Position numbers and translations under genes: made by a program. From NCBI RefSeq assembly GCF_003072505.1, contig NZ_NTGB01000001.1, positions 446,820 through 510,819 on the forward strand: a DNA stretch of 64,000 nucleotides. The letters run 5' to 3'. The notes under the pieces are model-generated. The model searched no databases. It had not been told where the DNA came from and saw only the letters and a program-made list of their open reading frames with translations. Below, piece by piece: positions 10,532 through 62,445 of the stretch. Numbering within the stretch: the first letter of the stretch is position 1; each line of letters opens with the position of its first letter. This DNA is from Polynucleobacter rarus (GTDB lineage: Bacteria > Pseudomonadota > Gammaproteobacteria > Burkholderiales > Burkholderiaceae).

Positions 10532-11641
10532 ATGGCAGGAAGCACTTTTGGACATCTATTTTGCACCACAACGTTTGGTGAATCCCACGGACCCGCAATT
10601 GGTGCCGTGGTGGATGGTTGTCCTCCGGGTTTAGAGCTGTCGGCCCAGGACCTGCAAATTGATTTAGATCGTCGCCGGCCAGGCACTTCTAGGCACGTGA
10701 CGCAGCGTCAAGAACCCGATCAAGTCGAAATTCTCTCAGGTATTTATCAAGGTAAAACGACCGGCACACCGATTGCTTTATTGATTCGCAATACAGATCA
10801 GCGTAGTCAAGATTACGGCAATATTTTAGATACTTTTAGGCCTGGTCATGCCGACTACACCTACCAACAAAAATACGGGATTCGTGATCCACGCGGAGGT
10901 GGTCGCTCTTCAGCACGTCTGACAGCTCCAGTGGTGGCCGCGGCCGGCATTGCCAAGAAATGGTTAAAAGAGCGTTACGGGATTGAGTTTATTGGTTATA
11001 TGTCCCAACTAGGTGATCTAGCCATTCCTTTTGAAGACGCGGTGCATATTCCGAATAATCCTTTTTTTGCTCCCAATCAAACGATGATCCCTGAGCTCGA
11101 GAGCTATATGGATCAACTGCGTAAAGAGGGTGATTCTTGCGGTGCCAAAATTACGGTTAAAGCGACCGGTATGCCAGTTGGTCTGGGTGCACCTCTCTTT
11201 GATAAGTTAGACGCAGATATTGCTTACGCCATGATGGGGATTAATGCTGTCAAAGGGGTCGAAATCGGCAGTGGTTTTGAGAGCGTATCACAGCGAGGCA
11301 GTTTTCACGGGGATAATTTAACGCCTGATGGATTTACCACGAATCATGCAGGTGGAGTGTTGGGCGGCATCAGTACTGGACAAGATTTAATCGTGTCGAT
11401 TGCCATTAAACCTACTTCGAGTATCTTGACCATGAAAGATTCCATTGACGCGGCTGGTAATCCCGTGAAGGTACAAACCAAAGGTCGCCATGATCCTTGT
11501 GTGGGTATTCGGGCCACACCGATTGCGGAAGCGATGCTGGCTTTAGTTGTCATGGATCATGTTTTACTGCATCGCGCCCAGTGCGCGGATGTGCAGTCGA
11601 GCACACCGATCATTGCTGCTCAAAATCCGCAAATCTTATAA
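10532..11641 (+). CDS. aroC: chorismate synthase
   Basis: 369 residues, normal length. It catalyses the last shikimate step, 5-enolpyruvylshikimate 3-phosphate to chorismate, using reduced FMN. Signatures visible are the N-terminal [18 protein letters not shown] (signature 1), the arginine-rich [17 protein letters not shown] and [15 protein letters not shown]. The C-terminal [17 protein letters not shown] is signature 3. The stop overlaps the ATG of the following MFS gene by one base (TAATG), so the two are translationally coupled. Confidence 0.96.
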
Positions 11642-12825
11642 TGCAGGGTTCGCAGCCTGTGCTGGCTAAGCACCATATTTTTTCGACGTTTTTCTTCTTT
11701 TATTTTGGCTATTTAGGGATTGTGAGTCCCTATATGAGTCTGTACTTTAATGATATTGGCTTTACTGCCATCCAGATTTCGATTCTGATGTCGATGTTGC
11801 AGTTCACCCGGATTATTGGTCCCTTTGCTTGGGGATGGATGGCTGATTATCGCCAAGACCGGATTGGTTTGATGCGCGTTACCGCAGTGCTTTGTGTGAT
11901 TGTCTTCCTCGGAATATTTGTTTCGAATCAGTTTTATTTCTTACTTGCTTGGATGTTTATTTTGAACACCTTCAGTAGCAGTCTGACACCACTGAGTGAA
12001 GCGGTGACGATTCGGGCACTGCAAAAAGTAAACGCCTTTGAGAGCAAATATGGCAGGATTCGTTTGTGGGGCTCGATTGGATTTATTCTGGCGGTCTCAG
12101 GCGGTGGTTTTTGGTTTGAAAAATTCGGTATCGCGACCTTACCCTATGTTGCGCTCTTTATCATGTGTGGAGTCTTAGTCAGTACCTGGCTGTTGTGGGA
12201 GCCACCGCATGAGGCGCATGAGAAACAAAAAGGGGAGATTCTGACAATCCTTAAAAAACCGGAAGTGATCTGGTTTTTTAGCTCGACCTTTTGCATGATT
12301 TTTGCCCACGCTAGTTATTACGTGTTTTATTCTTTATATCTCAGTAAGCTAGGTTATGGAACTCAGACTATCGGAGTTTTTTGGATGCTCGGCGTTCTAG
12401 CTGAAGTCCTCTTCTTCTACTACCAACGCTTTTTCTTAGAAAAGTTTGGCGCGCAACAGATTCTGATTGCTTGCTTTTTAGTAGCTGCAATGCGTTTTGC
12501 GACGATTGCTTATTTGCCGATTTTCGCTTTGTTATTATTTATGCAAATCTTCCATGCGATGACCTTCGGCGCGCATCACACATCTAGTCTGAGATTCTTG
12601 CAGCAGTGGTTTAATGGCCCAACACAAGCTAGAGGACAAGCTTTATATACTTCGATTTCTTATGGCTTAGGTGGCAGTATTGGTGGCTTTGCAGCAGGTT
12701 GGGTGTGGGACGTACTGGGCGCCGAGCATGTCTTTGGACTGTCAGCAATAGCGAGTTTGGTTGGTTACTTTGCAATCAAGCAGTCCATCAAAATTACGCA
12801 CTCTCACGGCCATCCCGCCTTTTAG
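11641..12825 (+). CDS. MFS transporter (HcaT/nucleoside-permease-like group)
   Basis: 394 residues and about 12 membrane helices, starting at the ATG that overlaps the aroC stop. The reading frame is open further upstream inside aroC, but that extension is not hydrophobic and is not expected. The opening FFFFYFGYLGIVSPYMSLYF and the loop FAWGWMADYRQDR match the MFS_1-like group that includes the phenylpropionate permease HcaT. This gene follows aroC in other Burkholderiales as I recall. The substrate is unknown. Confidence 0.85.
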   Translation: MQGSQPVLAKHHIFSTFFFFYFGYLGIVSPYMSLYFNDIGFTAIQISILMSMLQFTRIIGPFAWGWMADYRQDRIGLMRVTAVLCVIVFLGIFVSNQFYFLLAWMFILNTFSSSLTPLSEAVTIRALQKVNAFESKYGRIRLWGSIGFILAVSGGGFWFEKFGIATLPYVALFIMCGVLVSTWLLWEPPHEAHEKQKGEILTILKKPEVIWFFSSTFCMIFAHASYYVFYSLYLSKLGYGTQTIGVFWMLGVLAEVLFFYYQRFFLEKFGAQQILIACFLVAAMRFATIAYLPIFALLLFMQIFHAMTFGAHHTSSLRFLQQWFNGPTQARGQALYTSISYGLGGSIGGFAAGWVWDVLGAEHVFGLSAIASLVGYFAIKQSIKITHSHGHPAF

Positions 12826-12904: not shown

Positions 12905-14152
12905 TCAAGGTTTTGCAGCCGTTAAATCAACCTGAACTTTGCAACCAGGAACCAAGAACTTACCCACTTCTAATGTTGTTCTTGGCGGTGGAGATGGAAA
13001 ATATTCTTTCCAAATCTGATCGAAATAATAAAAGTCATTAAGGTCGGATAAAAAGACTTGTGCTTTGACAGTGTCTGCCAAATCAAAGCCGCCTTCGTGA
13101 AATAGCTTTTTTAAATTACTCAAAACATAACGGGTTTGTTTTTGAATCTCAGAGCCATAGTAAGGAAAAGCAGGATCCTGATGTGCTACCTGAATCATCG
13201 GTGTCTGATGATCAGAGGCAATTTGGCCACTGGCGTACAGGGTGTCATTGACAATGACGCCATTACAAAAGGATTGTTGCTGATTATCGCCGTCCAGAGT
13301 AATTTCTCTTTTAGGCGTATTCGGTAAAACACCCCATAAATCGATTTCGATCCGACATCCCGGCACTAATAATTTCTGAACCTCAACAATCGTCCTTGGC
13401 ACAGGCTTTTGAAAGAACTCTTGCCAAACTTGGTCAAAATAATAGAAGTCATTTAGGTCGGTTAAAAAGATTTGAGCTTTCACCACGTCTTTAAAGTCAC
13501 AACCAGCGGCGTCAAAGACGCTTTGAATATTACTCAAGATATATCTTGTTTGTTTTTGGATGTCTGAGCCATAGTAAGGGAAAGCGGGATCTTGCTTGGC
13601 CTCTGCAGCAACTCCAGTTTGATAGTCGGAGGCGATTTGACCTGCTGCATAGAGCACATTTTCGATCAAAATACCCTGTGAGTAATGGGCCATCGGAGTC
13701 GGTGTTTTTTTGCCAATAATGACTTGACGTGGCACTTTAGCTTGCACACCCCAGAGGTCGATTTCTACTTTACAGCCCGGTACTAATAAGCCACCTATTT
13801 CTACGGTAGTTCTGGGTGGTGGTGATGGGAAAAACTCTTTCCATACTTGGTCAAAGTAGTAGAAATCGTTTAAGTCCTTTAAAAATACTTGTGACTTCAC
13901 TACATCGTTAAAGCTACTCCCCGCGCTTTCAAAAACAGACTGGAGATTTTGCAGAATATATCTAGCTTGTTTTTGAATGTCAGAGCCATAGTAGGGGAAC
14001 GCTGGATCTTGTTTAGCTTCAGGAGCCACACCGGTTTGATAGTCTGATGCGATTTGTCCGGCGGCATAAATCGTGTTGCGATGCAGGACACCTTGGCAAT
14101 AGTGCGCCATTGGTTTTGGTGTTTTCAAGCCTTTCAGAACTTGGTTATTCAT
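12905..14152 (-). CDS. triple RidA-domain protein (three YjgF/YER057c units in one chain)
   Basis: 415 residues made of three RidA-like domains at about 1-138, 147-277 and 283-415. RidA proteins are normally about 130 residues and assemble as trimers. They hydrolyse reactive imines/enamines made by PLP enzymes, with active sites between subunits. Each unit here carries DPAFPYYGS(D/E)IQKQ and DLNDFYYFDQ(V/I)W. Each also keeps the substrate-carboxylate arginine in a PRT(T/I)(V/L)E context (R114, R253, R391) and ends VPGC(K/R). One chain could thus fold as a whole pseudo-trimer. Units 1 and 2 are most alike, and unit 3 lacks the Y-QTGVA segment. The enzyme activity is inferred. Confidence 0.85.
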   Translation of the reverse strand: MNNQVLKGLKTPKPMAHYCQGVLHRNTIYAAGQIASDYQTGVAPEAKQDPAFPYYGSDIQKQARYILQNLQSVFESAGSSFNDVVKSQVFLKDLNDFYYFDQVWKEFFPSPPPRTTVEIGGLLVPGCKVEIDLWGVQAKVPRQVIIGKKTPTPMAHYSQGILIENVLYAAGQIASDYQTGVAAEAKQDPAFPYYGSDIQKQTRYILSNIQSVFDAAGCDFKDVVKAQIFLTDLNDFYYFDQVWQEFFQKPVPRTIVEVQKLLVPGCRIEIDLWGVLPNTPKREITLDGDNQQQSFCNGVIVNDTLYASGQIASDHQTPMIQVAHQDPAFPYYGSEIQKQTRYVLSNLKKLFHEGGFDLADTVKAQVFLSDLNDFYYFDQIWKEYFPSPPPRTTLEVGKFLVPGCKVQVDLTAAKP

Positions 14153-14282
14153 TTTTCATCTCCCTTTTATTTTATTTATGTTGTTAAGTCTAATCGAAAT
14201 TAGCTTGGTATGTACAGAGCACTGATAGCAAACTTTTCCGAACCATATTATCTATTTGGGGACTTCAAAGTCCTATGGGAAT

Positions 14283-14633: not shown

Positions 14634-14882
14634 ATGACCTACATAATCTTGAGTGATATGTCAGCTAGCATCACTGAGCTCAAGAAAAATCCAATGCGGA
14701 CCGTTGCCGCGGGTGAAGGCTTGCCTGTTCTCATTTTAAATAGGAACGAACCAGTCTTTTATTGTATTCCCGCGCAAGCTTATGAGACGTTGATGGATTA
14801 TGTGGAAGATTTGGAACTTAACGCAATCGTCGACTCTAGAAAAGGGCAGGGAACCATGAGAGTGTCTTTAGATGACCTTTAA
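14634..14882 (+). CDS. orphan YefM/StbD-type antitoxin
   Basis: 82 residues from the ATG at 14634, which has an AGAGAAA ribosome binding site. An in-frame ATG nine codons earlier is less likely. The sequence LSDMSASITELKKNPM, VAAGEGLPVLILNRNEPVFYCIPAQAY is typical of the StbD/YefM branch of Phd antitoxins. These bind promoter DNA through the N-terminal part and a RelE-fold toxin through the C-terminal tail. A RelE/StbE toxin normally follows directly. Here a terminator-like hairpin overlaps the stop and no toxin frame follows, so this is an orphan antitoxin. It may act in trans on toxins elsewhere. Confidence 0.85.
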   Translation: MTYIILSDMSASITELKKNPMRTVAAGEGLPVLILNRNEPVFYCIPAQAYETLMDYVEDLELNAIVDSRKGQGTMRVSLDDL

Positions 14883-14906: not shown

Positions 14907-15190
14907 TCAAATCATCCCCGACCTAAAGTGAATCGATACTCAAGTTAGATGATTCCAACTTTTTGGAGCAGTTCAGAGGAAAGGAAATCGCTTACTCTTT
15001 TCTGCTAAACCTTAGGTCCCAAGTTCGCTTTGTTTGCCAACTTTTTTGTCAAAGTCATTATTTTTTCATCGATATTAAAAATAACTTAACTAGCAATGTT
15101 TAATGATTTGCTAATTGCAAATATTAACCATGTATAAAGTGTGGATAAAAATTCTTAACACATAGAAAAAGTGTGTAAATTTAAGTGATC

Positions 15191-15595
15191 ATGACAGCAC
15201 AAACAATTTCAACTAAGGCTAATTCGGATATTTCCAAAGTAATCCTACAGACCGATGAACTAAGGTTATTTAAAAAAGCAGGTAAGCCTAATTACGATAG
15301 GGTTAAAGATATTTTGGGTTTCACAAAGCAGGATATATCCATAGCATCAGGTGTCCCTTTTGGTTCAATTCGTTTTGATGGTAAAGTTCCTGCTGAGCTC
15401 ACAGAGCGGTTTATTGAGTGGGCAACGGCAATTGCTCTTGTACATAGCTTTTTTAAGAACGAAACAAAAACTATACTTTGGTTTAAGGTCCCAAATCCTA
15501 TGCTTGGAGATGTCGCACCACGAGATATGATTAAACTTGGTCGCTTTAAGAGGCTACTGAAATTTATTCAATCAGCATTGGAAGACGTTCGCTAA
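15191..15595 (+). CDS. Xre/MbcA/ParS-type (DUF2384) antitoxin, no toxin visible
   Basis: 134 residues from the ATG at 15191; a GTG two codons earlier is also in frame. A helix-turn-helix-like part (DILGFTKQDISIASGVPFGSIR) comes first. The C-terminal toxin-binding region follows, with FKVPNPMLGDVAPRDMIKLGR, matching the W-NTPNP-LGG-P-D conserved in MbcA/ParS antitoxins. Such genes are usually followed within a few bases by a RES-domain NAD-degrading toxin. None is seen before the decayed antitoxin gene at 15684. The protein looks intact, so it may be an orphan regulator. Confidence 0.7.
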   Translation: MTAQTISTKANSDISKVILQTDELRLFKKAGKPNYDRVKDILGFTKQDISIASGVPFGSIRFDGKVPAELTERFIEWATAIALVHSFFKNETKTILWFKVPNPMLGDVAPRDMIKLGRFKRLLKFIQSALEDVR

Positions 15596-51677: not shown

Positions 51678-53789
51678 TTGATTTTTCAAGCTTGCGTTAG
51701 TATTAGGATTATCCATAAATATATAAATTGGAATGATTTTATCTTGGCAGATGGTAATTTAGAAGATGTCGATTCAAATCAAAAGGGTTTTAGCTCCTTA
51801 TTGAAATTTGCCGTCCTTGGAAATGTAACTGTTGCAATTGTTAATAGATTGAACCGAGGAGATTTGATTAATGCTCAAGATAAAAATGGATTAACTGTCT
51901 TGATGTATGCAGCCAGAAAAGGAAATTTGGAGGTAGTAAACCTTTTATTATCTTTTGGGGCTGATCCAATCATTAAAAATAATGCCCATCAGACTGCTAT
52001 TGAACTCTCTGAAATTGCCGGTTTTGTTGAGGTTACTCAAGCACTAACTGCCCAATTTTCAAAAACTGAGGACTCTATTGATTCCCATACACAGTCAGAA
52101 TTTTTTGACTTAAGCGGTTGGCTAGAAGATTCCGAAATTCTACTCCCTTCACACGAAATTGAAATTGGCACTGAGTCAAATAGGATTCAGAATAAAATTC
52201 TTTCTCACAAACCTATTGATCAGGATGAAGAATGGACTGATATAGAAATTGAATTACCTGGAAAAATAGCTTGGGTCAGGAAAAAAGAGCAGCTATCTTT
52301 TTCTGATAAGGCCCTGATAAAAGAGGCAATTTATCTGGGTTATTCCAACGGGGCCATTCCAATATCCTTGTTAGAGAAAATAGCACTAGATGAGAAAGAT
52401 GAGCTCGATGAGGTTTTTTTAGATACATTAGTTTTAGCTTTTGAGGATTTGGAATTTAAAATACAGTACTTCTTTTATGTGGATGTAGAACTTAAGGTTT
52501 GGCTTGAAGATGACTATTTAGATGACTTGTACGACCAATTAATTTATTTCATCGATAACAATCTTCAAGATGAATCATGGTTTTATCGTAGCTTGACTAT
52601 CCCACTTGAGGGAGGAAGTCTACTAACTCGTGAGGAGGAGATTGATCTAGGAAAACAAATTGATAGTAGTTACGAAGAATGTATTAATAGTATCGTAAGT
52701 AATCGACTGGCTATAAGTATTATTGCGGATGATTTTAAAAAAGTCTTGAATGGCTCTCTTGAGATTGAAGAGATGATTTCTGAAAAAGTAGAAGTGGTAG
52801 ATGAAGACGATAGTTTGATCCAAAATCAACTATTAACCCCTCTAGATGATTCAGTTGAAGAAGAGCGAAATGAAACTAATACATTTGATCCTCAAATTAA
52901 AGAATTTTTAGGCTTGGTTGAGCGTGATAATGAAGAGTCATTTCAATATGCAATTCATAAGCTTTTATTTGACCTTAATATCAACTTTAAATATATACAG
53001 AATCTAATATTCTTTGGGCAATTAAAAGATGCAACTTTATCCTCTCATATTGAGGATGCTCTAAAGGCTCGCAATAAGCTGGTTACATCGAATTTAAGGC
53101 TTGTTTCCCATGTATCTAGAGTTTATAGATATACCGATCTTCCTTTTTCTGACCTAGTTCAAGAGGGTTTTATTGGATTAATTAAAGCTGCTGAAAGATA
53201 TGAATACAAGCGAGGTTTTCGATTTACTACTTATGCTACATGGTGGATTCGTCAGGCGGTTAGTCGAATGGTTCAGGATAAATCAAGAACGATCAGACTC
53301 CCAGTTCATTTAGGGGATTTACTAAACAAAATTGATCGTGTAGAGCGAGCACTCATTGATGTTCCTCTCCATAAAAAGAATAACAAAATTGCCGAGGTGC
53401 TAGGTATCTCGGAATTGAGGGTTCAAAGGGCAAAAAGCGCAAAATTTACAATGATTTCAATTGATTCTGAGGACCCAAATGACCAAATTTGCCTTGATTC
53501 CCTAGGATTGCCTTCACATGAGGATGAGTCTGCATTGTCAAATTGGATGTTAAGACGATCATTTGAATCTATATTTAAAAGTATGGATCCAAAAGAGGTT
53601 GGAGTTATTAAGAAAAGGTTTGGTTGGTATGACGGAGTCCCACTTACCCTTGAAGAGGTTGGAGAGTTGCATGGTGTAACTAGGGAGAGAATAAGACAGA
53701 TTGAAGCAAAGGCTTTTAAAAGGCTTCAAGGTCCTTCGGCCCTGAGGCACTTAGGATTAATCTCTAATAAGCCTATATCGGAATCGTGA
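51678..53789 (+). CDS. ankyrin-repeat/sigma-70 fusion protein
   Basis: 703 residues when started at TTG 51678; another TTG is at 51744. No ATG lies upstream of the ankyrin part. About 50-125 hold two or three ankyrin repeats (NGLTVLMYAARKGNLEVVNLLLSFGADP). A middle region of low similarity follows. Sigma region 1.2 (LTREEEIDLGKQID, about 316-329), region 2 (NKLVTSNLRLVSHVSRVY to TTYATWWIRQAVSRMVQ, about 464-535), region 3 and region 4 come next, with region 4 at about 620-690 (LTLEEVGELHGVTRERIRQI). The -35 contact residues of region 4.2 and Q of WWIRQ (region 2.4) match housekeeping sigma. Region 1.1 is absent and ankyrin repeats stand in its place. The stop overlaps the next gene's ATG by one base. 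Confidence 0.9.
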   Translation: MIFQACVSIRIIHKYINWNDFILADGNLEDVDSNQKGFSSLLKFAVLGNVTVAIVNRLNRGDLINAQDKNGLTVLMYAARKGNLEVVNLLLSFGADPIIKNNAHQTAIELSEIAGFVEVTQALTAQFSKTEDSIDSHTQSEFFDLSGWLEDSEILLPSHEIEIGTESNRIQNKILSHKPIDQDEEWTDIEIELPGKIAWVRKKEQLSFSDKALIKEAIYLGYSNGAIPISLLEKIALDEKDELDEVFLDTLVLAFEDLEFKIQYFFYVDVELKVWLEDDYLDDLYDQLIYFIDNNLQDESWFYRSLTIPLEGGSLLTREEEIDLGKQIDSSYEECINSIVSNRLAISIIADDFKKVLNGSLEIEEMISEKVEVVDEDDSLIQNQLLTPLDDSVEEERNETNTFDPQIKEFLGLVERDNEESFQYAIHKLLFDLNINFKYIQNLIFFGQLKDATLSSHIEDALKARNKLVTSNLRLVSHVSRVYRYTDLPFSDLVQEGFIGLIKAAERYEYKRGFRFTTYATWWIRQAVSRMVQDKSRTIRLPVHLGDLLNKIDRVERALIDVPLHKKNNKIAEVLGISELRVQRAKSAKFTMISIDSEDPNDQICLDSLGLPSHEDESALSNWMLRRSFESIFKSMDPKEVGVIKKRFGWYDGVPLTLEEVGELHGVTRERIRQIEAKAFKRLQGPSALRHLGLISNKPISES

Positions 53790-55270
53790 TGCAACTAAAT
53801 AAATTTAGATCAGCACCACCAAATGCATCCGCAATGATTGAAACATTGCGTGGCTTGGGATATTCCACGGGGGCTGCATTAGCAGATATTATCGATAACT
53901 CAGTCTCTGCTGGCGCTAAAAATATTTGTCTTAAGTTTATTTGGAAGGGCACCGAGAGCTCCATTTTGGTGGTGGATGATGGTTACGGCATGAATGATAA
54001 TGAGCTTGAATTAGCAATGAGACTTGGGGATAAAAATCCTACCTCCCAGAGAAACCCAAATGATCTGGGGAGATTTGGAATAGGGTTGAAGTCAGCCTCC
54101 TTTTCCCAGTGTAGACGGTTGACAGTCGGCTCGATGAAGGACGGTGTTTTAAGCTGTTTGCGCTGGGATCTAGACTATCTTGCCAATAATGCTTACGGGG
54201 GCTGGCATTTATTAGAAGGTGCTGATCCGAACTCTGGAGGGTTGATAGTCGAAAACATGCCAACCCCTAATGGTTCGGTAGTTTTGTGGGAGGTAATGGA
54301 CCGTATCGTCACACCCGGCTTTACTGAGCAAGAGTATCTAGATTTGATTGAAAAGGTTGATCAGACCTTGGGCATGATTTTTCATCGCTTTATAGAAGGC
54401 TCCTACCCTAGGCTCAGGCTGACTATTAACGAAGTACCAGTAAGGCCGTGGGATCCGTTTATGAGTAATAACTCTTTTACTATGGCTTCTCCTGAAGCGT
54501 CATTTAGAACTGCTTCTGGAGTTGTTAAGATTAGAGGTTATGTTCTACCTCACAACGACCAGCTGACAACTGAGGAATATGAGCGTTGGGGTGGGCCGGA
54601 TGGTTGGAATTCACAACAGGGATTCTATGTTTACCGAAATGATCGGCTTTTAGTTTCTGGTGGTTGGCTGGGTTTAGGCGGACGAAGGGCATGGACTAAA
54701 GAAGAGTCACATAGACTTGCTCGAATATCATTAGACATTACAAATACATCCGATGTTGATTGGAAGATTGATATTCGGAAGTCAATAGCGCGCCCACCAC
54801 TTTCAATTAGGCCAATGCTAATAAAAATTGCAGAAGATATAAGAGCAAAGGCGAGAAGAGTCTTTGCCCACAGGGGCTTGTATAACAAGAGCACGCATAT
54901 AGAGGAAATACATAATGCGTGGAGATCTGAGGTTTTCAAAGGTGGAATCCGTTATCGAATAGACACAGATCACCCTGCTATTAAATCCATCATTGAATCC
55001 TCTGGGGAATTGAGTCCACAAATTAAAGTACTACTGAGGATTATTGAAGAAACTGTCCCCGTGCAAAAAATATGGCTTGATACTGCTGAGGCCAAAGAAA
55101 CCCCAAGAACTGCCTTTGCTGAGCAGCCATCCGAAAGCGTGGTTGAGGTCCTCACTGCAGTATTTGAGGATTTAACTTTAAGGCGTGGTATGTCCTCAGA
55201 GTTGGCGAAAAAGACATTGTTATCTAGTGAGCCCTTTAATCTTTACCCTAATTTAATTTCAAATTTATAA
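53789..55270 (+). CDS. MORC/MutL-like GHKL ATPase
   Basis: 493 residues from the ATG at 53789 (a GTG one codon earlier is less likely). ATP-binding motifs are LADIIDNS (31-38), DDGYGM (64-69 with VV before) and LGRFGIGLKS (94-103), the Bergerat fold of Hsp90, MutL and MORC proteins. The C-terminal part has no endonuclease motif that I recognise. Iyer, Abhiman and Aravind (2008) described such ATPases in predicted restriction-modification systems with Z1 proteins. It probably senses or clamps DNA for the nuclease step. It ends nine bases before the Z1 gene. Confidence 0.85.
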   Translation: MQLNKFRSAPPNASAMIETLRGLGYSTGAALADIIDNSVSAGAKNICLKFIWKGTESSILVVDDGYGMNDNELELAMRLGDKNPTSQRNPNDLGRFGIGLKSASFSQCRRLTVGSMKDGVLSCLRWDLDYLANNAYGGWHLLEGADPNSGGLIVENMPTPNGSVVLWEVMDRIVTPGFTEQEYLDLIEKVDQTLGMIFHRFIEGSYPRLRLTINEVPVRPWDPFMSNNSFTMASPEASFRTASGVVKIRGYVLPHNDQLTTEEYERWGGPDGWNSQQGFYVYRNDRLLVSGGWLGLGGRRAWTKEESHRLARISLDITNTSDVDWKIDIRKSIARPPLSIRPMLIKIAEDIRAKARRVFAHRGLYNKSTHIEEIHNAWRSEVFKGGIRYRIDTDHPAIKSIIESSGELSPQIKVLLRIIEETVPVQKIWLDTAEAKETPRTAFAEQPSESVVEVLTAVFEDLTLRRGMSSELAKKTLLSSEPFNLYPNLISNL

Positions 55271-55279
55271 AGTTTAAAA

Positions 55280-58168
55280 ATGAGCGCAAATATAGAAAAT
55301 TTAACTAGCGTAATTAATATTACCCAAACCCTTCTGATGAGGGTTAAGGATAAAAGTTTAATTACTCCCTCACTAATCCAAGAAAAAATAAAGCTCGCAT
55401 TTGCAATGGATCCCTCTATGGCAGAGGGAGTAGAGTTAAATGAAGTTGTTGAGGAGTTAATTCGGCGTTTCAGTCGATGGATTGGAACGGACTCAACGAT
55501 TTCTGATAAAAAAAGTGAGCCATGGATTACTGGTGAAAGAAAGCAAGATTGGAAATACTGGCAACGTTATGCAACTTGGCTTGAACAGCAGATTTCAGCT
55601 CCTGCCGTAGAAAAATTAGATAAAACCACGGATGAAATTTTAGATTTATTGGCTGATCCAAAAAGAGATGGCGGTTTTGATCGCCGTGGATTAGTCGTTG
55701 GACATGTTCAATCTGGTAAGACAAGTAACTACACGGCATTAGTCGCAAAATCTGCAGACGCCGGATATAAATTAATTATTGTTTTGGCGGGCATGCATAA
55801 TAATTTACGTTCTCAAACCCAAATACGCCTAGAGGAAGGATTTCTAGGTTACGAAACGTCTTCGAGTGGCGATCCAGCAAATCCAATTGGTGTTGGTGTT
55901 GGAGAGATTGATTCTGATATACAGCTATCTCCCGCTTGTTTCACAACTCGACTTGATAATGGAGATTTCAATACTAGAGTAGCCAATCATTTGGCAAATC
56001 GACCAGAGGAGCGACCATGGTTGTTTGTGGTTAAAAAGAACAAAACCGTATTAAATCGGCTGCTCAAATGGATTAAGAACCACGTTGCTGATGCTACGGA
56101 TGAGAATCAGCGTAAATATGTTTCTAAATTGCCGCTAATGATTATTGATGATGAGGCAGATCATGCTTCAGTGGATACGGGAGAGCAGGTTCATTTTTCG
56201 GACGGCACTTTGGATGAGAATTATCAGCCTAAAGCGATCAATGCGGGCATTCGAAAAATTCTCAATTCATTTTCAAAGTCGGCTTATGTTGGCTACACCG
56301 CAACACCGTTTGCCAATATCTTTATTCATCGAAAAAATAAAACTGTTGAAGAAGGTGAAGACCTATTTCCATCTGCATTCATTAAGAATTTAGGTGCCCC
56401 ATCAAATTACATTGGCCCTGCAAGAGTATTTGGTCTCCAAGGTGAGGAGGAGCGCATTGGTGGGATGCCTGTCATACGTTCAATTATTTACAAGGGTGAA
56501 GCTGAAGAGCTTAAGTGGATACCCTTAAAGCACAAGAAGGATCATCAACCGCTATGCAATGGTGAAGATCGCATCCCCAAGAGTCTTGAGGATGCTGTTA
56601 ATTCCTTTTTTTTAACATGTGCCGTTAGATATTTGCGCGGTCAAGAGGATAAACATTCTTCAATGTTGGTTCATGTAACCAGATTTAATCTTGTGCAAGA
56701 GGCTGTATATAACCAAGTTGAGAAATATGTTGCCCATATTAGACAGAGAATAACTTGGAAGATCGATAACGAAAAGGTCATAGATACGCTAAAGGATCTG
56801 TGGCTAAAGGACTATGCTCCAACCTATAAAAAGTTTGAGGACATCGCCTCTAATGATAAGTATTTAGAATTGTCTCAAACATTTCCAATTTGGGATGAGG
56901 TTCTAAATATTCTGCCAAGAGTGTTGTCTGATATCAGCGTTAGGATGATTAATGGGAGCGCTAAGGATGCGTTGGATTACACTACCCATGTCCAAAAAGG
57001 TCTAAAGGTTATAGCGATTGGTGGTGATAAGTTATCACGAGGTTTAACTCTCGAAGGACTATGTGTCAGTTATTTTATTCGTACATCAAAAATGTATGAC
57101 ACTCTAATGCAGATGGGGCGGTGGTTTGGTTATCGGCCGGGCTATGTAGATGTTTGTCGCCTATACATAACTGAGGATTTGATTGGATGGTTTGCAGATA
57201 TAACCGATGCAGCTGAAGAGTTAAGGGAAGAGTTTGATCTTATGGTTGAGAGTGGTGGATCACCTCTTGATTATGGTCTTAAGGTGAAGTCCCACTCAGT
57301 ATTGATGGTTACATCACCTCTGAAGATGAGGACTGCCGAAACACTATATTTATCGTTTAGCGGAAGCTTATTGCAAACAATTGCATTCTTTAAAGAAAAG
57401 AATAAGCAGCTTTTGAATTTGGCGGCCTCAAATCATTTAATTACCTCTATGGGTGAGCCATCACAGAAAGGTATTAAGTTGAGTCGCCCTAGTGGTAGGA
57501 ACGAAGAATTACGTAATAGTTATTTATGGGTAGGGGTTGATCCTATAAAAATTATCGACTTCCTGAGTGAATATGAGTCTCACCCAACCTCGATTAGAGT
57601 TAATAGTCAAATGATTGCTAATTTTGTTAAGAAATTATTAGTCGCAGATCAATTAAAGGATTGGAATGTTGTATTAATGGGTGAGGGTAGTGGCGCTGCA
57701 TATACATTCGAAAGCGGCTTAAAGATTGATAGTATGAAAACTCGAAAACATAAAAGTGTTGAGGGTAAATATTCAATTGGAGTTCTAACCGACCCTAGTG
57801 ATGAAGCCGTTGATTTAGATGAGACTACTTGGTCAGCCGCTTTAGAAGCTACTAAAAAGGCTTGGATGCTTGACCCTGCCAGAAGTAATCTGGTGCCACC
57901 AAAAATCCCTGGCGGTATTTATATCCGAAAAATCAAAGGTCTTGGGTATGAAGGTCATGCACCTATTAATAAGGGCTTATTGATTCTTTACCCGCTTGAT
58001 TCAAGTAAGGATGCAATCAAGGATTCAATGTTTGAAGATGTTGGCTATCGGGACCCCGTTATGGGCTTTGCAATCAGCTTTCCATCCACTAAAGCAAGTG
58101 AAGATGGCGTTAAGGTGGAATACCAAGTGAATCAAGTATTCTGGGAGGAGTTTGGTGAAGCTGATTAA
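55280..58168 (+). CDS. Z1-domain superfamily-II helicase-like protein
   Basis: 962 residues. Motif I is GHVQSGKTSN (141-150), motif II is IDDEADHAS (289-297) and motif III TATPFANI (340-347). The Z1 domain carries LSRGLTLEGL (about 585-594) and QMGRWFGYRPGYVDVCRLY. Z1 is the hallmark of the MORC-associated systems and is thought to translocate on or unwind DNA. The start is at ATG 55280. The gene overlaps the next by 14 bases. Confidence 0.93.
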   Translation: MSANIENLTSVINITQTLLMRVKDKSLITPSLIQEKIKLAFAMDPSMAEGVELNEVVEELIRRFSRWIGTDSTISDKKSEPWITGERKQDWKYWQRYATWLEQQISAPAVEKLDKTTDEILDLLADPKRDGGFDRRGLVVGHVQSGKTSNYTALVAKSADAGYKLIIVLAGMHNNLRSQTQIRLEEGFLGYETSSSGDPANPIGVGVGEIDSDIQLSPACFTTRLDNGDFNTRVANHLANRPEERPWLFVVKKNKTVLNRLLKWIKNHVADATDENQRKYVSKLPLMIIDDEADHASVDTGEQVHFSDGTLDENYQPKAINAGIRKILNSFSKSAYVGYTATPFANIFIHRKNKTVEEGEDLFPSAFIKNLGAPSNYIGPARVFGLQGEEERIGGMPVIRSIIYKGEAEELKWIPLKHKKDHQPLCNGEDRIPKSLEDAVNSFFLTCAVRYLRGQEDKHSSMLVHVTRFNLVQEAVYNQVEKYVAHIRQRITWKIDNEKVIDTLKDLWLKDYAPTYKKFEDIASNDKYLELSQTFPIWDEVLNILPRVLSDISVRMINGSAKDALDYTTHVQKGLKVIAIGGDKLSRGLTLEGLCVSYFIRTSKMYDTLMQMGRWFGYRPGYVDVCRLYITEDLIGWFADITDAAEELREEFDLMVESGGSPLDYGLKVKSHSVLMVTSPLKMRTAETLYLSFSGSLLQTIAFFKEKNKQLLNLAASNHLITSMGEPSQKGIKLSRPSGRNEELRNSYLWVGVDPIKIIDFLSEYESHPTSIRVNSQMIANFVKKLLVADQLKDWNVVLMGEGSGAAYTFESGLKIDSMKTRKHKSVEGKYSIGVLTDPSDEAVDLDETTWSAALEATKKAWMLDPARSNLVPPKIPGGIYIRKIKGLGYEGHAPINKGLLILYPLDSSKDAIKDSMFEDVGYRDPVMGFAISFPSTKASEDGVKVEYQVNQVFWEEFGEAD

Positions 58169-59150
58169 TGAATTTTTAGGAGCATGGAAAACATTTGAGG
58201 CTTCCACCACTGAAAATGGCTGGCAGGTAATTCCTGTTACAAGCTTTTTGAATTGTCGCTTGTTGGCGGGCATGGCCTTTCCTCGGCTTAGCGAAGCGGC
58301 AATTTTTAACTTTGAGATAGCAACTTTGCCAAGAGCTGAGCTACTGCCCAGTGGGAAGGGCTTCTCTGTTGAGCCTGTAGATATTGAGGGAAAAAGATGG
58401 CTTGCACTTACTAGATCCCAAGACGGAAAGCTTGATCTATATGTCGCAATGCTAGAAAACCTTTTTGAACTTATAGAGGAGCTGAGTACTGTAAAAGGAG
58501 ACATCCTTTTACATTCTTTTTTGGATAGGGTTTCAGCCTGGCAAGATTTCATGAAGAAGGGACGACAGAATCTCACAATAGAAAGTCAAACCGGACTCTT
58601 TGGAGAGCTCTCTTTTCTGAAGGATTTGCTTGGCTTAGGGCTTAAAGAGGGGGCTATTAAAACTTGGGATGGTCCTCTGAATGGATTGCAAGATTTCCAT
58701 ATTGGCTTTGGAGCAATTGAGGTCAAATCTACTATTTCGCAAGATGGATTTATTGCAAAGATAGGTTCATTAGATCAGCTAAGTGATAGTACATATAAGC
58801 CCCTTTATCTAGTCGGTAAAAGATTAGCACTATCCCCAAATGGGACAACGTTACCAATGTTAATCGATGAAATACGCATTGCTTTAGCTGGGGATCTAAG
58901 CTTGTTAAGTAATTTTGAGAGTAGATTATTGCGCTCAGGATATTTAGATACACATTCCGGTGCCTATGATCGCTTTTTAGTAGTGGAAAAATCTTTAATG
59001 TATGAGGTAGATGAAGACTTTCCTAGATTGACGCCACAATTGGTTAATCCTTTGGTGAAATCTGCAAGATATGAAATAGATATTAGTTCCCTGCCAGCCA
59101 AGAGTTTAGACATAATGGAAATACTAAATAAATTAGGAGTAAGCATTTAA
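58155..59150 (+). CDS. PD-(D/E)XK motif protein (DUF4420-like) nuclease
   Basis: 331 residues from GTG 58155, which has GGAGGAG just before it; a TTG at 58152 is possible. A PD-(D/E)XK active site is readable: D180 in QDFHIGFG and E189-V-K191 in AIEVKS. TGLFGELSFLKDLL precedes it. The family is annotated as restriction-endonuclease-like in Z1 clusters. It presumably supplies DNA cleavage. The stop overlaps the AIPR ATG by one base (TAATG). Confidence 0.88.
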   Translation: MKLINEFLGAWKTFEASTTENGWQVIPVTSFLNCRLLAGMAFPRLSEAAIFNFEIATLPRAELLPSGKGFSVEPVDIEGKRWLALTRSQDGKLDLYVAMLENLFELIEELSTVKGDILLHSFLDRVSAWQDFMKKGRQNLTIESQTGLFGELSFLKDLLGLGLKEGAIKTWDGPLNGLQDFHIGFGAIEVKSTISQDGFIAKIGSLDQLSDSTYKPLYLVGKRLALSPNGTTLPMLIDEIRIALAGDLSLLSNFESRLLRSGYLDTHSGAYDRFLVVEKSLMYEVDEDFPRLTPQLVNPLVKSARYEIDISSLPAKSLDIMEILNKLGVSI

Positions 59151-60943
59151 TGGAATTACTAGAATTCTTAAATCAGTTACAGGATGAGGTTCATCAAGAT
59201 ATTGAGAGCCGGATCAAATCAAATGAAGATGGTTTTCCATTCCCGGAGCTAGTATTTTCGGAAAAGGTAATGAAGCACATGTCCGAAATTGGAATGACAT
59301 TCGATCCGGATATTTGTCACTACTCTGGAAAAGTTGGAAATGCAAATTTACGATTAACCGGCTTCTCACTTTCTGAGGATATGGAGCAACTAGATTTATT
59401 CGTATGCCTTTATAGTGACACAAGAGAAGTTCAACAAATTTCTGAAACAGAAACTAAAACCGCAGCTGAACAGTGCCTGAGATTTTTAGCAAAGTGCGCT
59501 GACGGTCAGTTGGCTGCAACAATGCATGAATCTCATGATGCCTATGCCTTTGTCTTAACAATTGAGCAATGCTACTCATCCTTAGAGCAAGTTAGGGTTT
59601 ATGTATTATCTGACCGCGTAGCTAAATCCAAAAACTTTAAGTCTCGTGAAATCGGCGGGAAAACAGTGAAGTTGGAGGTTATGGATATTGAGCGCTTATT
59701 TAGACATTGGTCTGAAGGTAAGCCTAGAGATGAATTGATTGTGAACTTTGAGGATGTGTCTGGTACAGCGCTACCTTGTGTCTACGTCCCTGGGCAGATA
59801 GATGATTATGACTACGCTTTAACGGTAATTAATGGAGAAGCCCTACGGTTCATTTATGAAAAATATGGACCTAGATTGCTGGAGGCTAACGTACGGTCAT
59901 TTTTAAGCTCTACCGGGAAAATCAATCGAGGTATTAGAGATACTTTGAGGAGTGATCCTGAAAAGTTCATGGCTTATAACAATGGAATTGTTCTAGTTGC
60001 CGATGAAATAATGCTGGGGAAAACTACAGATGGAGGCCCAGGTATTAAAGGGTTGAAAGGTATGCAGATTGTTAACGGTGGTCAAACAACCGCATCAATC
60101 TATTTCTCAAAGAAGAAATTCCCAGAGATTAATTTAGCTAGCGTCCGAATTCCCGCAAAAATTATCATTCTTAAATCTACCAGCCCGGAAGACGAAGAAT
60201 CATTGGTGTCGGATATTTCAAGATATGCTAATAGTCAAAACTCAGTTAGGCAATCAGATTTAGCCGCTAATAAGCCATTCCATGTCGAGATTGAAAAGCT
60301 CGCATCTTCAACCTATTGCCCAAATGGCATCGGGCGTTGGTTTTATGAAAGAGCTGCGGGTAGTTACAATACCTTGCTCAGTCGTGAAGGTAATACTCCA
60401 GCAAAACTGAAGACACTGAAAACAGATGTTATCCCATCTTCGAGGAAGATCACAAAAACTGATTTGGCAAAATATATGCTTACTTGGGATAGAAGACCTG
60501 ACTTGGTGAGCTTAGGTTCGCAAAAGAATTTTGAAAAATTTATGGACTATATCAATACAGGCCTTGATGGGAATCCCTTCCCTACGCCAACTGTCTCTGA
60601 ATTTAAAAATATGGTTTCAAAGGCCATTATTTATAAGAAAACTAGTGCGTTAGTTAGACCAATGTTCCCAGCCTTCCAAGGAAATGTGGCCACATATCTA
60701 GTTGCTATGCTCTCTGAGTTTTATGGAAGTAAATTTAACTTTGATCGCGTTTGGACAAATCAAGATATATCCACGGAACTTAGAAATCAACTAAAAATTT
60801 GGGCTGGAGAGGTTAATACTGCTCTTCATAAGTCATCGGCTGGCCGAATGATTTCAGAGTGGGCTAAAAAATCTGAATGCTGGGAGGCGGTTAAGGAAGG
60901 GAAGTATTCTCCACCGGCTGATAACATACCTGAGTTTAATTAG
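59150..60943 (+). CDS. AIPR-family protein
   Basis: 597 residues. The AIPR core is FMAYNNGIVLVADEI (about 274-288), followed by GMQIVNGGQTTASIYF (about 304-319) and VSDISRYANSQNSV. AIPR proteins are linked to abortive-infection and restriction systems and may act in DNA recognition or in regulating the nuclease. This is the last gene of the five-gene operon. Its stop overlaps that of the opposing methyltransferase gene by four bases. Confidence 0.9.
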   Translation: MELLEFLNQLQDEVHQDIESRIKSNEDGFPFPELVFSEKVMKHMSEIGMTFDPDICHYSGKVGNANLRLTGFSLSEDMEQLDLFVCLYSDTREVQQISETETKTAAEQCLRFLAKCADGQLAATMHESHDAYAFVLTIEQCYSSLEQVRVYVLSDRVAKSKNFKSREIGGKTVKLEVMDIERLFRHWSEGKPRDELIVNFEDVSGTALPCVYVPGQIDDYDYALTVINGEALRFIYEKYGPRLLEANVRSFLSSTGKINRGIRDTLRSDPEKFMAYNNGIVLVADEIMLGKTTDGGPGIKGLKGMQIVNGGQTTASIYFSKKKFPEINLASVRIPAKIIILKSTSPEDEESLVSDISRYANSQNSVRQSDLAANKPFHVEIEKLASSTYCPNGIGRWFYERAAGSYNTLLSREGNTPAKLKTLKTDVIPSSRKITKTDLAKYMLTWDRRPDLVSLGSQKNFEKFMDYINTGLDGNPFPTPTVSEFKNMVSKAIIYKKTSALVRPMFPAFQGNVATYLVAMLSEFYGSKFNFDRVWTNQDISTELRNQLKIWAGEVNTALHKSSAGRMISEWAKKSECWEAVKEGKYSPPADNIPEFN

Positions 60944-62445
60944 TTGCCTAGAAAAGCGTAAACAATTTCAGCAATCTTTTTTGCTAGCAACGGCGGGACG
61001 GCATTGCCAACTTGACCATACTGAGAGGTTTTATTTCCTTCAAAATAGTAGTTATCTGGAAATGTTTGAAGTCTGGCAGCCTCTCTTACAGTCAAACTTC
61101 GTGCTTGAGACGGATCGGGATGAATGTAGTAGTGTCCATCCTTAGAGATGTGAGAAACAATAGTTGTACTGGGCTGGTCTCCTAGCTGCACTCTAAATCG
61201 ATCTTGAAAAGGCGCATCAATTGAACTAGCATTTTGATGATTGGGTAACAATTTAGGCGGTAGCTCCCTAATTTTGGGCGATCTTTCTAGTACTTTCGCG
61301 TAATTTGATAACAGAAAGTATCTCTGAATATCTGAGCGCATATGTGATCTAGATTGGTGTTGAATAACCCCGTTTAGCTTTGGATCTATTAACCAGTCAT
61401 TTAGTTCAGAGTTCTTTAAAGCTTTTGGCTTACCTTTACAAAAAGGTGATCCAGCATTCATTATTTCAAGGCTTAGTTGGGCATTTCGCTCCATTTCAGC
61501 AATTAAAGTCTTTTTAAGTTCTGGATTCCAACCGCTTAACATTGATTTAGTGCCTTGCACGGCCTCATACCACTCGTTCAAAGAGTCCTTCTCTTGAGAG
61601 AGTTTGCTTCGTATATGGGGCATTGATTTCAATACATCATTAACAGTTACCATTTGATCTTCTTGTCGAAGAGTGAGGTGCTTCTTTTTAGCTAAATCTT
61701 TTCTCACCCCAAATAAGATGACTCTATGCCGAGCCTGAGGAATGCCGTAGAGCTCAGATTTAATGATGAAATCTCTTGGTTCAAGCTCATCTGATGGAGT
61801 GTCAAGTGTTAGAGATCTAATTTCATATTCCAACCCCGTTTTGGGATTAGAAAGATCGGTAATGATTTTTTTAAAAATCAGTTCACCATTAAGTTTTGAA
61901 GAAAGCATCCCCTTTACATTTTCCATAATAAATACGGGGGGTGCATGATGTTCAATAATACGTAAATATTCTTTATATAGCAGGTGTCTTACATCTGACT
62001 CATACTTTTCAATATTGTTCATCATCTTTGATCTACCGGCAATAGAATAAGCTTGGCACGGAGGACCACCAATTAATACCCATTTCGATTGCCCCTTAAC
62101 CCCAGATTTAATCCATCTATCAATATCTAAAGTGGGGGTAACTCCTAATGTTGCATTCCTTGCTTCATTTGTAGCTTCGTCAAAATGACTAGCAACTACG
62201 ATATCTTTATAAAACTCTTGTCTTAAAATATGCCCAGTTATGAAGTCGTAGTAAGAATCTGGCACCCTATTTCCAAATGCCCTAAATAATGCCCTGAGCA
62301 TTAGTGTTTGATATGCGCTTTGTTCTTTTTCGACTGAAAGTTTTAGCTTGAATGCAATTTCTCCATTCTTCCTTAAAGATGAGAAACCTTCTCCCAGCCC
62401 CCCTGGCCCAGCAAACAAATCGATTACGGGTATTGGTTCTGACAT
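60940..62445 (-). CDS. DNA (cytosine-5) methyltransferase
   Basis: 501 residues. Motif I is DLFAGPGGLGEGF (9-21), motif IV GGPPCQAYS with catalytic C130, motif VI MENVKG with E175 and motif VIII QARHRVILFG. Motifs IX and X are REAARLQTFPDNYYF and YGQVGNAVPPLLAKKI. The variable target-recognition region lies about 250-440; the recognised site cannot be read from sequence. It is convergent to the operon and presumably protects host DNA from the nuclease side. A Vsr gene is not seen. Confidence 0.93.
   Translation of the reverse strand: MSEPIPVIDLFAGPGGLGEGFSSLRKNGEIAFKLKLSVEKEQSAYQTLMLRALFRAFGNRVPDSYYDFITGHILRQEFYKDIVVASHFDEATNEARNATLGVTPTLDIDRWIKSGVKGQSKWVLIGGPPCQAYSIAGRSKMMNNIEKYESDVRHLLYKEYLRIIEHHAPPVFIMENVKGMLSSKLNGELIFKKIITDLSNPKTGLEYEIRSLTLDTPSDELEPRDFIIKSELYGIPQARHRVILFGVRKDLAKKKHLTLRQEDQMVTVNDVLKSMPHIRSKLSQEKDSLNEWYEAVQGTKSMLSGWNPELKKTLIAEMERNAQLSLEIMNAGSPFCKGKPKALKNSELNDWLIDPKLNGVIQHQSRSHMRSDIQRYFLLSNYAKVLERSPKIRELPPKLLPNHQNASSIDAPFQDRFRVQLGDQPSTTIVSHISKDGHYYIHPDPSQARSLTVREAARLQTFPDNYYFEGNKTSQYGQVGNAVPPLLAKKIAEIVYAFLGN

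Follow-up and report, generated by a model that had tools for sequence, protein, structure and literature searches.

A three-unit Rid protein of Polynucleobacter rarus, probably a covalent pseudo-trimer with one conserved, altered unit

A minus-strand gene of Polynucleobacter rarus encodes a single chain made of three Rid (YjgF/L-PSP) units. We consider it probable that its product is a pseudo-trimer of the 3x-RidA type, with two clefts of the usual kind and one conserved but changed cleft, and that the gene is accessory and probably catabolic. The three units, their conserved residues and asymmetry, purifying selection on every unit and a patchy distribution were all observed. The architecture itself has been in print since 2015, and single-chain proteins with the same overall fold have already been solved. 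What is new here, judging from aligned sequences, is that one of the three units keeps changed pocket residues across close relatives.

In the window (the whole stretch of DNA analysed, 64,000 nucleotides), the gene lies at 12905-14152 on the minus strand and, according to its open reading frame and translation, encodes 415 amino acids from an ATG at 14152. A putative ribosome-binding-like GGGAG, read from the sequence, is found 5' of this ATG (14160-14164, minus strand). Unit 1 (13736-14152, minus strand; residues 1-139) has the pocket residues Tyr18, Arg114 and Glu130, and unit 2 (13316-13735, minus strand; residues 140-279) has Tyr157, Arg253 and Glu269. Unit 3, taken together with the stop codon (12905-13315, minus strand; residues 280-415), keeps Arg391 and carries Phe295 for Tyr and Gln407 for Glu. 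Pfam model PF01042 (Ribonuc_L-PSP) matches the 415-residue chain in three stretches with a whole-protein E value of 3.2e-73, and a profile built in this analysis places three domains at 2-139, 141-278 and 284-415 of the stop-to-stop frame. Local alignment scores between the units (554, 440 and 415) are far above the maxima obtained from 500 shuffles each (63, 51 and 57), so the repeat is not due to chance. Protein identity is 73% between units 1 and 2, 55% between units 1 and 3, and 53% between units 2 and 3. The architecture is therefore confirmed by Pfam, the profile and the unit alignments, as the original prediction had it: three RidA-type units, diverged from one another, each retaining the key arginine. 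The NCBIfam model TIGR00004 (curated cut-off, 106.25 bits) gives 232 bits for the whole protein, which is a sum over three units; scored singly, the units reach 90.5, 81.7 and 65.5 bits, each below the cut-off.

An assembly artefact or a recent, neutral tandem duplication could in principle produce such a gene, and two fragments with like units at contig ends (loci L017 and L020) are what such an origin might leave behind. We regard it as hardly conceivable: the window units share only 57-67% of their bases, they are under purifying selection (see below), and 10 other contigs, each from a different genome or bin (L006-L015), carry the full chain, which shows that it is not an artefact of assembly.

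The original prediction also held that no three-unit case had been described, and this proved wrong. Niehaus et al. (2015) named this architecture "3x-RidA", with EF_0115 of Enterococcus faecalis as an example, and passages of that paper (PMC4433059) state that its authors presume covalently linked trimers and that RidA fusions of two or four units exist but are rare. Three-domain RidA proteins had thus been described already, which at least in part refutes the claim of novelty. No second paper that, judged by its listing, deals with three-unit RidA proteins was found in the one open-access library searched (most subscription journals lie outside it), and the term 3x-RidA occurred in PMC4433059 alone within that library.

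A tandem of three RidA-type domains in one chain is common to EF_0115 and the window protein. The three-unit protein encoded in OR846589.1 (host E. faecalis), which we take to be of the EF_0115 type, is 22.8% identical to the window protein and differs from it in several respects: in the alignment, Lys replaces the key Arg of its unit 1; the Tyr is missing from all units, and Gln occupies the Glu column in 3/3 units; and it is without the 12-residue insert found in the window units. The E. faecalis gene lies, by reading, near a putative aminotransferase-type regulator or enzyme and an ornithine cyclodeaminase (L034, 4795-7259), neighbours suggesting amino acid metabolism.

Structure prediction was carried out with AlphaFold2. 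A 7-row alignment yielded a best model with a mean pLDDT of 71.9 and a pTM of 0.62 (the other four: 58.1, 48.8, 48.3 and 45.7), and a 15-row alignment yielded one with a mean pLDDT of 73.3 and a pTM of 0.77 (the other four: 31.6-36.0). These alignments are shallow, and only the best of the five models is usable. If single units alone had been placed with confidence, we estimate that the pTM would have stayed near a third to 0.4; the value of 0.77 thus implies that their mutual arrangement is modelled too, and the best model packs them within one chain in the manner of chorismatase. The top five Foldseek matches of the predicted model were chorismatases, over 376-380 alignment columns and ahead of single Rid chains. 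On structural re-alignment, the chorismatases 5ag3, 5a3k and 4bps matched the predicted chain from end to end (Z 23.5, 23.3 and 22.9; rmsd 3.1-3.2; 280-283 residues aligned; 11% identity), FBXO22 (8ua6) gave a Z of 15.9, and single Rid chains matched units 1, 2 and 3 at a Z of about 14-15. Cyanuric acid hydrolases were absent among the matches listed in structure searches with the predicted model, which carries no weight as negative evidence. By sequence, 53 PDB entries matched the window protein at E <= 0.001; none exceeded 165 residues and none was a chorismatase. The chemistry of chorismatases differs from that of the Rid type.

The pTM value and the whole-chain match to chorismatases support the view that one chain would pack as a covalent pseudo-trimer, a prediction taken from one good model of five. 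The covalent trimer that had been proposed for this protein is thus favoured by the predicted fold and by the chorismatase match, and weakened by only one of five models having folded well. In such a pseudo-trimer, the three units would surround a central barrel and three clefts would lie between neighbouring units. Passages of PMC11185555 describe the FIST domain of FBXO22, the chorismatases and the cyanuric acid hydrolases as having a pseudo-threefold fold that could derive from the YjgF trimer. For the cyanuric acid hydrolase AtzD, with its 'Toblerone' fold, an origin by concatenation of YjgF-type monomers has been published (passages of PMC3758960); as described there, AtzD differs in that its active site lies within the central barrel, and in having a metal site and four-stranded repeat units.

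Compared with E. coli RidA and TdcF, each window unit has, in the alignment, 12 extra residues ahead of the first long helix. The insert stretches cover residues 43-56 of unit 1 (13985-14026), 182-195 of unit 2 (13568-13609) and 320-333 of unit 3 (13154-13195), all on the minus strand, and each contains QDPAFPYYG. According to passages of PMC6742747, the 2-aminomuconate deaminase AmnE (PDB 6IZH) is a homohexamer in which a loop, Lp2, joins two trimers; AmnE has an insert at the Lp2 place and the key Arg in common with the window units, and is a single-unit protein, unlike the window chain. Two Rid genes on plasmids, which we take to encode 2-aminomuconate deaminases because they lie among meta-cleavage genes, have 10 residues at this place compared with 12 in the window units, with unlike letters. 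An insert positioned like the loop that holds the AmnE hexamer together (as passages of PMC6742747 describe it) would suit a concatemer without an intrachain trimer, either with its units joining those of other chains or with pseudo-trimers stacked back to back as in AmnE. We think this rather improbable, as the best model packs the units within one chain in a chorismatase-like manner, and stacked pseudo-trimers would in any case extend, not contradict, the covalent pseudo-trimer that we favour.

How the clefts would be built can be proposed from TdcF, whose inter-subunit pocket is described, in published passages, as lined by seven conserved residues, Tyr17, Gly31, Asn56, Asn88, Arg105, Pro114 and Glu120, with Asn88 orienting Arg105. 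These passages indicate that the Arg face and the Glu face come from different subunits; Tyr17 and Gly31 presumably go with the Glu face, judging from the same passages and from the description of the AmnE cleft. Each cleft of the pseudo-trimer would then combine an Arg105/residue-88 face from one unit with a Tyr17/Gly31/Glu120 face from the next. The Arg105 equivalent is present in 3/3 window units and in every readable unit of 14 loci, and Gly31 and Asn56 are likewise kept in all three window units; the Pro114 column holds a Val beside a Pro, an assignment that is uncertain. At the archetypal RidA footprint residues (Tyr17, Ser30, Asn88, Arg105, Cys107 and Glu120; PMC6435465), units 1/2/3 read Y/Y/F, A/A/S, D/D/D, R/R/R, T/I/T and E/E/Q, respectively. 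The window units share with E. coli RidA and TdcF the fold and, throughout, Arg105, Gly31 and Asn56; units 1 and 2 also share Tyr17 and Glu120. They all differ in that the E. coli proteins are single units forming homotrimers, are without the insert, and have Asn88 and Cys107 in place of Asp and Thr/Ile. The latter replacements, together with the scores of the units below the TIGR00004 cut-off, suggest that the substrate may not be that of RidA. In the likely chemistry, the Arg would hold the carboxylate of an imine or enamine, which is hydrolysed to a 2-oxo acid and ammonia, and the two clefts with Arg, Tyr and Glu would most likely act in this way on amino-acid imines or enamines.

The third cleft is where the Phe/Gln face of unit 3 would meet the Arg face of a neighbour. 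Among close relatives (the window, L006-L014 and L016), the Gln407 codon (12932-12934, minus strand) corresponds to Gln in 11/11 readable third units, and the Phe295 codon (13268-13270, minus strand) to Phe in 10/11 and to Leu in 1/11 (L006). The 10 close-clade sequences in which units 1 and 2 are both present have Tyr and Glu in these units, as do the last units of the more distant relatives L015, L017 and L020 (3/3 readable); in L015, all three units have them. With the Arg and Glu faces coming from different subunits and with unit 3 changed, one of the three clefts should differ, and it would probably have a somewhat different substrate preference or rate. Non-equivalent sites had been part of the original prediction: at the residue level, this is supported by the Tyr17 and Glu120 columns of unit 3 throughout the close clade. 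The distinctive point is that one unit of the three differs and remains different across close relatives.

These changes need not alter function. In passages of PMC4433059, Ala at the Tyr and Glu positions of Salmonella enterica RidA has little effect, and other Rid subfamilies usually have Phe in place of the Tyr. In our alignment, the Tyr column likewise holds Phe in E. coli RutC, an active enzyme that deaminates 3-aminoacrylate (passages of PMC8113886), the E. faecalis protein has Gln in the Glu column, and L041, a single-unit Rid protein of the genus, has Ala there. It is accordingly conceivable, though somewhat unlikely, that unit 3 has diverged by drift in minor residues with no functional effect, giving a covalent trimer with three like-working sites; its retained Arg fits this as well. 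The near-invariance of Gln and Phe among close relatives, the low dN/dS of unit 3 and its long branch before the clade (0.61; see below) speak against drift. One inherited ancestral change would look the same, so that conservation is not decisive between drift and the changed cleft that we favour.

Selection was examined in the window gene and L006-L014. Mean dN/dS values for units 1, 2 and 3 were 0.058, 0.031 and 0.054, from 42, 39 and 44 of 45 pairs with dS between 0.02 and 2.5; as mean dS exceeds 1, these ratios are rough. All three units are under purifying selection in the close clade, and unit 3, with its value of 0.054, is not decaying.

Two trees of the units were made. Both omit the units of L006, L009, L011, L013 and L016, which are nearly identical to others, as well as the first units of L017 and L020, which are partial. 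In the first, with 46 rows, the window units, units 1 and 2 of L033 and units 3 of L021 and L036 were unplaced. The second was made without 12 of the 46 rows, which had long branches (all units of L021, L033 and L036; L008_single, L005_single and EcYjgH). There, support for the 23 rows of the window family as one group is 92/97 (not starred). A branch of 0.61 leads to a starred group made up of the window clade's third units, whereas L015 has its units 1 and 2 placed among the first and second units (93/91, likewise without a star). Unit 3 thus seems to have separated from the other units before the divergence from L015. The units of L015 are 81-87% identical in protein, and the two partial units of L017 agree at 93/93 residues and 275/279 bases, which indicates that units were homogenised or newly copied in those lineages and diverged in the window clade. 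The contigs carrying L017 (1-700) and L020 (1495-2001) end inside like Rid units, and the number of units there could differ from three. A single triplication ancestral to all three-unit Rid proteins was considered and is unsupported, as the E. faecalis units form a clade of their own (100/100 in the first tree, 100/99 in the second), a pattern that homogenisation within lineages could mimic.

The distribution of the gene is patchy. The source genome (G000; 3.16 Mb in 2 contigs) was placed with Polynucleobacter, and 12/186 genomes of the genus, the source genome among them, match the protein at E <= 1e-30; these 12 genomes measure 2.5-3.2 Mb, and the matches in G513 and G515 are partial, at contig ends. 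A named relative is P. kasalickyi (L007; 91% identity). In the class sample, 3/369 genomes matched at E <= 1e-30, namely the source genome, G091 with a 168-residue fragment (65%) and G011 with a distant three-unit protein. At E <= 1e-25, 2/299 genomes of the family sample (the source genome and G939 with a distant three-unit protein) and 1/398 of the phylum sample (the source genome) matched. A scan of genome contigs gave 13 loci, with the full chain in 10. One of the sequences, L013 (87%), comes from a bin titled Thermoflexus hugenholtzii, a title at odds with its neighbours and kin that looks wrong. No relative of the window protein was found in the viral contigs scanned. In plasmid and phage records, 825 and 25 match, respectively, and our statements rest on the matches listed (40/825 and 10/25): among these, most show three pieces confined to some 350-500 bases of continuous sequence, the pattern expected when a single-unit gene is matched by all three units. 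Four of these records were inspected (H24, H28, H38 and H48), of which one has a three-unit gene; a Sinorhizobium record among those inspected has two adjacent RidA genes that are not fused. Additional fusions may occur among the other records.

Distant three-unit Rid proteins were found at L021 (genome G011), L033 (G421) and L036 (G939), each with three domains, one of those of L036 being weak (E 0.036). The Arg is missing from the aligned column in some or all of their units; in L033, which is 29% identical to the window protein, it is absent from the third unit in the alignment. Against the PDB, L021 and L033 gave Rid-type matches only (E <= 0.01). Genome G421, a member of the genus, carries both a close three-unit protein and the distant L033. 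Single-unit genes are also present in the genus: TIGR00004 matches at E <= 0.001 in 101/101 genomes of at least 95% completeness, and a single domain scores above its cut-off in 1/101 (L041), which makes a standard single-unit RidA the exception in this genus. In the source genome, a single-unit Rid gene (L004; C1:1476229-1476576) is broken by one in-frame stop. P. kasalickyi has an unbroken single-unit Rid frame of 163 residues (L044), with no orthology to L004 implied.

Gene neighbourhoods bear on function. At L012, the three-unit gene is followed after 8 bp by the start of a D-2-hydroxyacid dehydrogenase gene (Pfam), whose homologues adjoin the three-unit gene at L013 and L014; such a neighbour would fit reduction of a putative 2-oxo acid product. 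At L015, the genes ending 37 bp upstream are read as a putative liv-type ABC transporter, and the L020 fragment has alongside it a Peripla_BP_6 binding protein from the same cluster as that of L015. TctC-receptor homologues occur at 8/15 loci compared. An FrsA-like hydrolase adjoins the gene at L008-L011; it was rejected as a specific partner, since the genome of origin has eight homologous places beyond the window. The three-unit genes of the window, L006, L007 and L016 share a neighbouring transporter/aroC segment, with no informative partner there. A shared operon as a clue to the substrate was likewise rejected, because the neighbours fall into several unrelated sets (L008-L011; L012-L014; L015 and L020; none for the window). 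Within the genus, the gene would be accessory with a likely catabolic role, the differing neighbour sets indicating no single substrate.

The protein might instead be no imine deaminase of general metabolism but specialised for catabolism, for example as a deaminase of the aminomuconate type or as an enzyme for a ring-cleavage product; we think this unlikely, though several points are in its favour. The insert is of the AmnE type and 6izh matches the window protein at E 2.2e-10; moreover, L010 has nearby a CnbZ homologue (325 bits, cut-off 220), an aspartate dehydrogenase (402 bits, cut-off 253) and an RraA-like protein. However, many ordinary Rid chains score better than 6izh, the plasmid genes of the aminomuconate type are no closer to window unit 2 (30-31% identity) than E. 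coli RidA and TdcF are (31%), and the neighbours vary from locus to locus.

Other features of the window were recorded. A convergent ORF at 11497-12825 (plus strand), by reading a putative MFS transporter, adjoins the three-unit gene; its TTG start overlaps an aroC-like frame (10532-11641), and the true start is probably further in. Upstream of the three-unit gene are two small antitoxin-like ORFs. The first (14637-14882, plus strand) has a sub-threshold match to Phd/YefM antitoxins (25.4 bits, cut-off 29.8) and homologues in L006 and L018. The second (15185-15595, plus strand), for which Pfam gave no match at E <= 1e-4, is 73% identical to a small protein adjoining a RES-domain protein in P. 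kasalickyi (L007, 3288-4691). A homologue of that RES-domain protein was not found in window positions 5000-27000, and the small protein is possibly the orphan antitoxin of a RES-type pair. Farther away, positions 53786-62445 encode a HATPase, a Z1-domain protein, a DUF4420 (PD-(D/E)XK-like) protein, an AIPR abortive-infection protein and a C5 cytosine DNA methylase, a cluster that looks like a phage-defence island.

A further step is possible, if doubtful: the Rid trimer, once joined into one chain, may have become a protein with two canonical clefts and a changed one with a role of its own, in substrate or in regulation, and thus an intermediate toward the unequal sites of chorismatase-like proteins, with L015 representing the state of three like sites. 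The family would in any case offer a natural series, with three like units in L015 compared with a clade that has kept two pocket changes in one unit. With such a series, one can test if an interface site becomes free to change once a homotrimer is fused.
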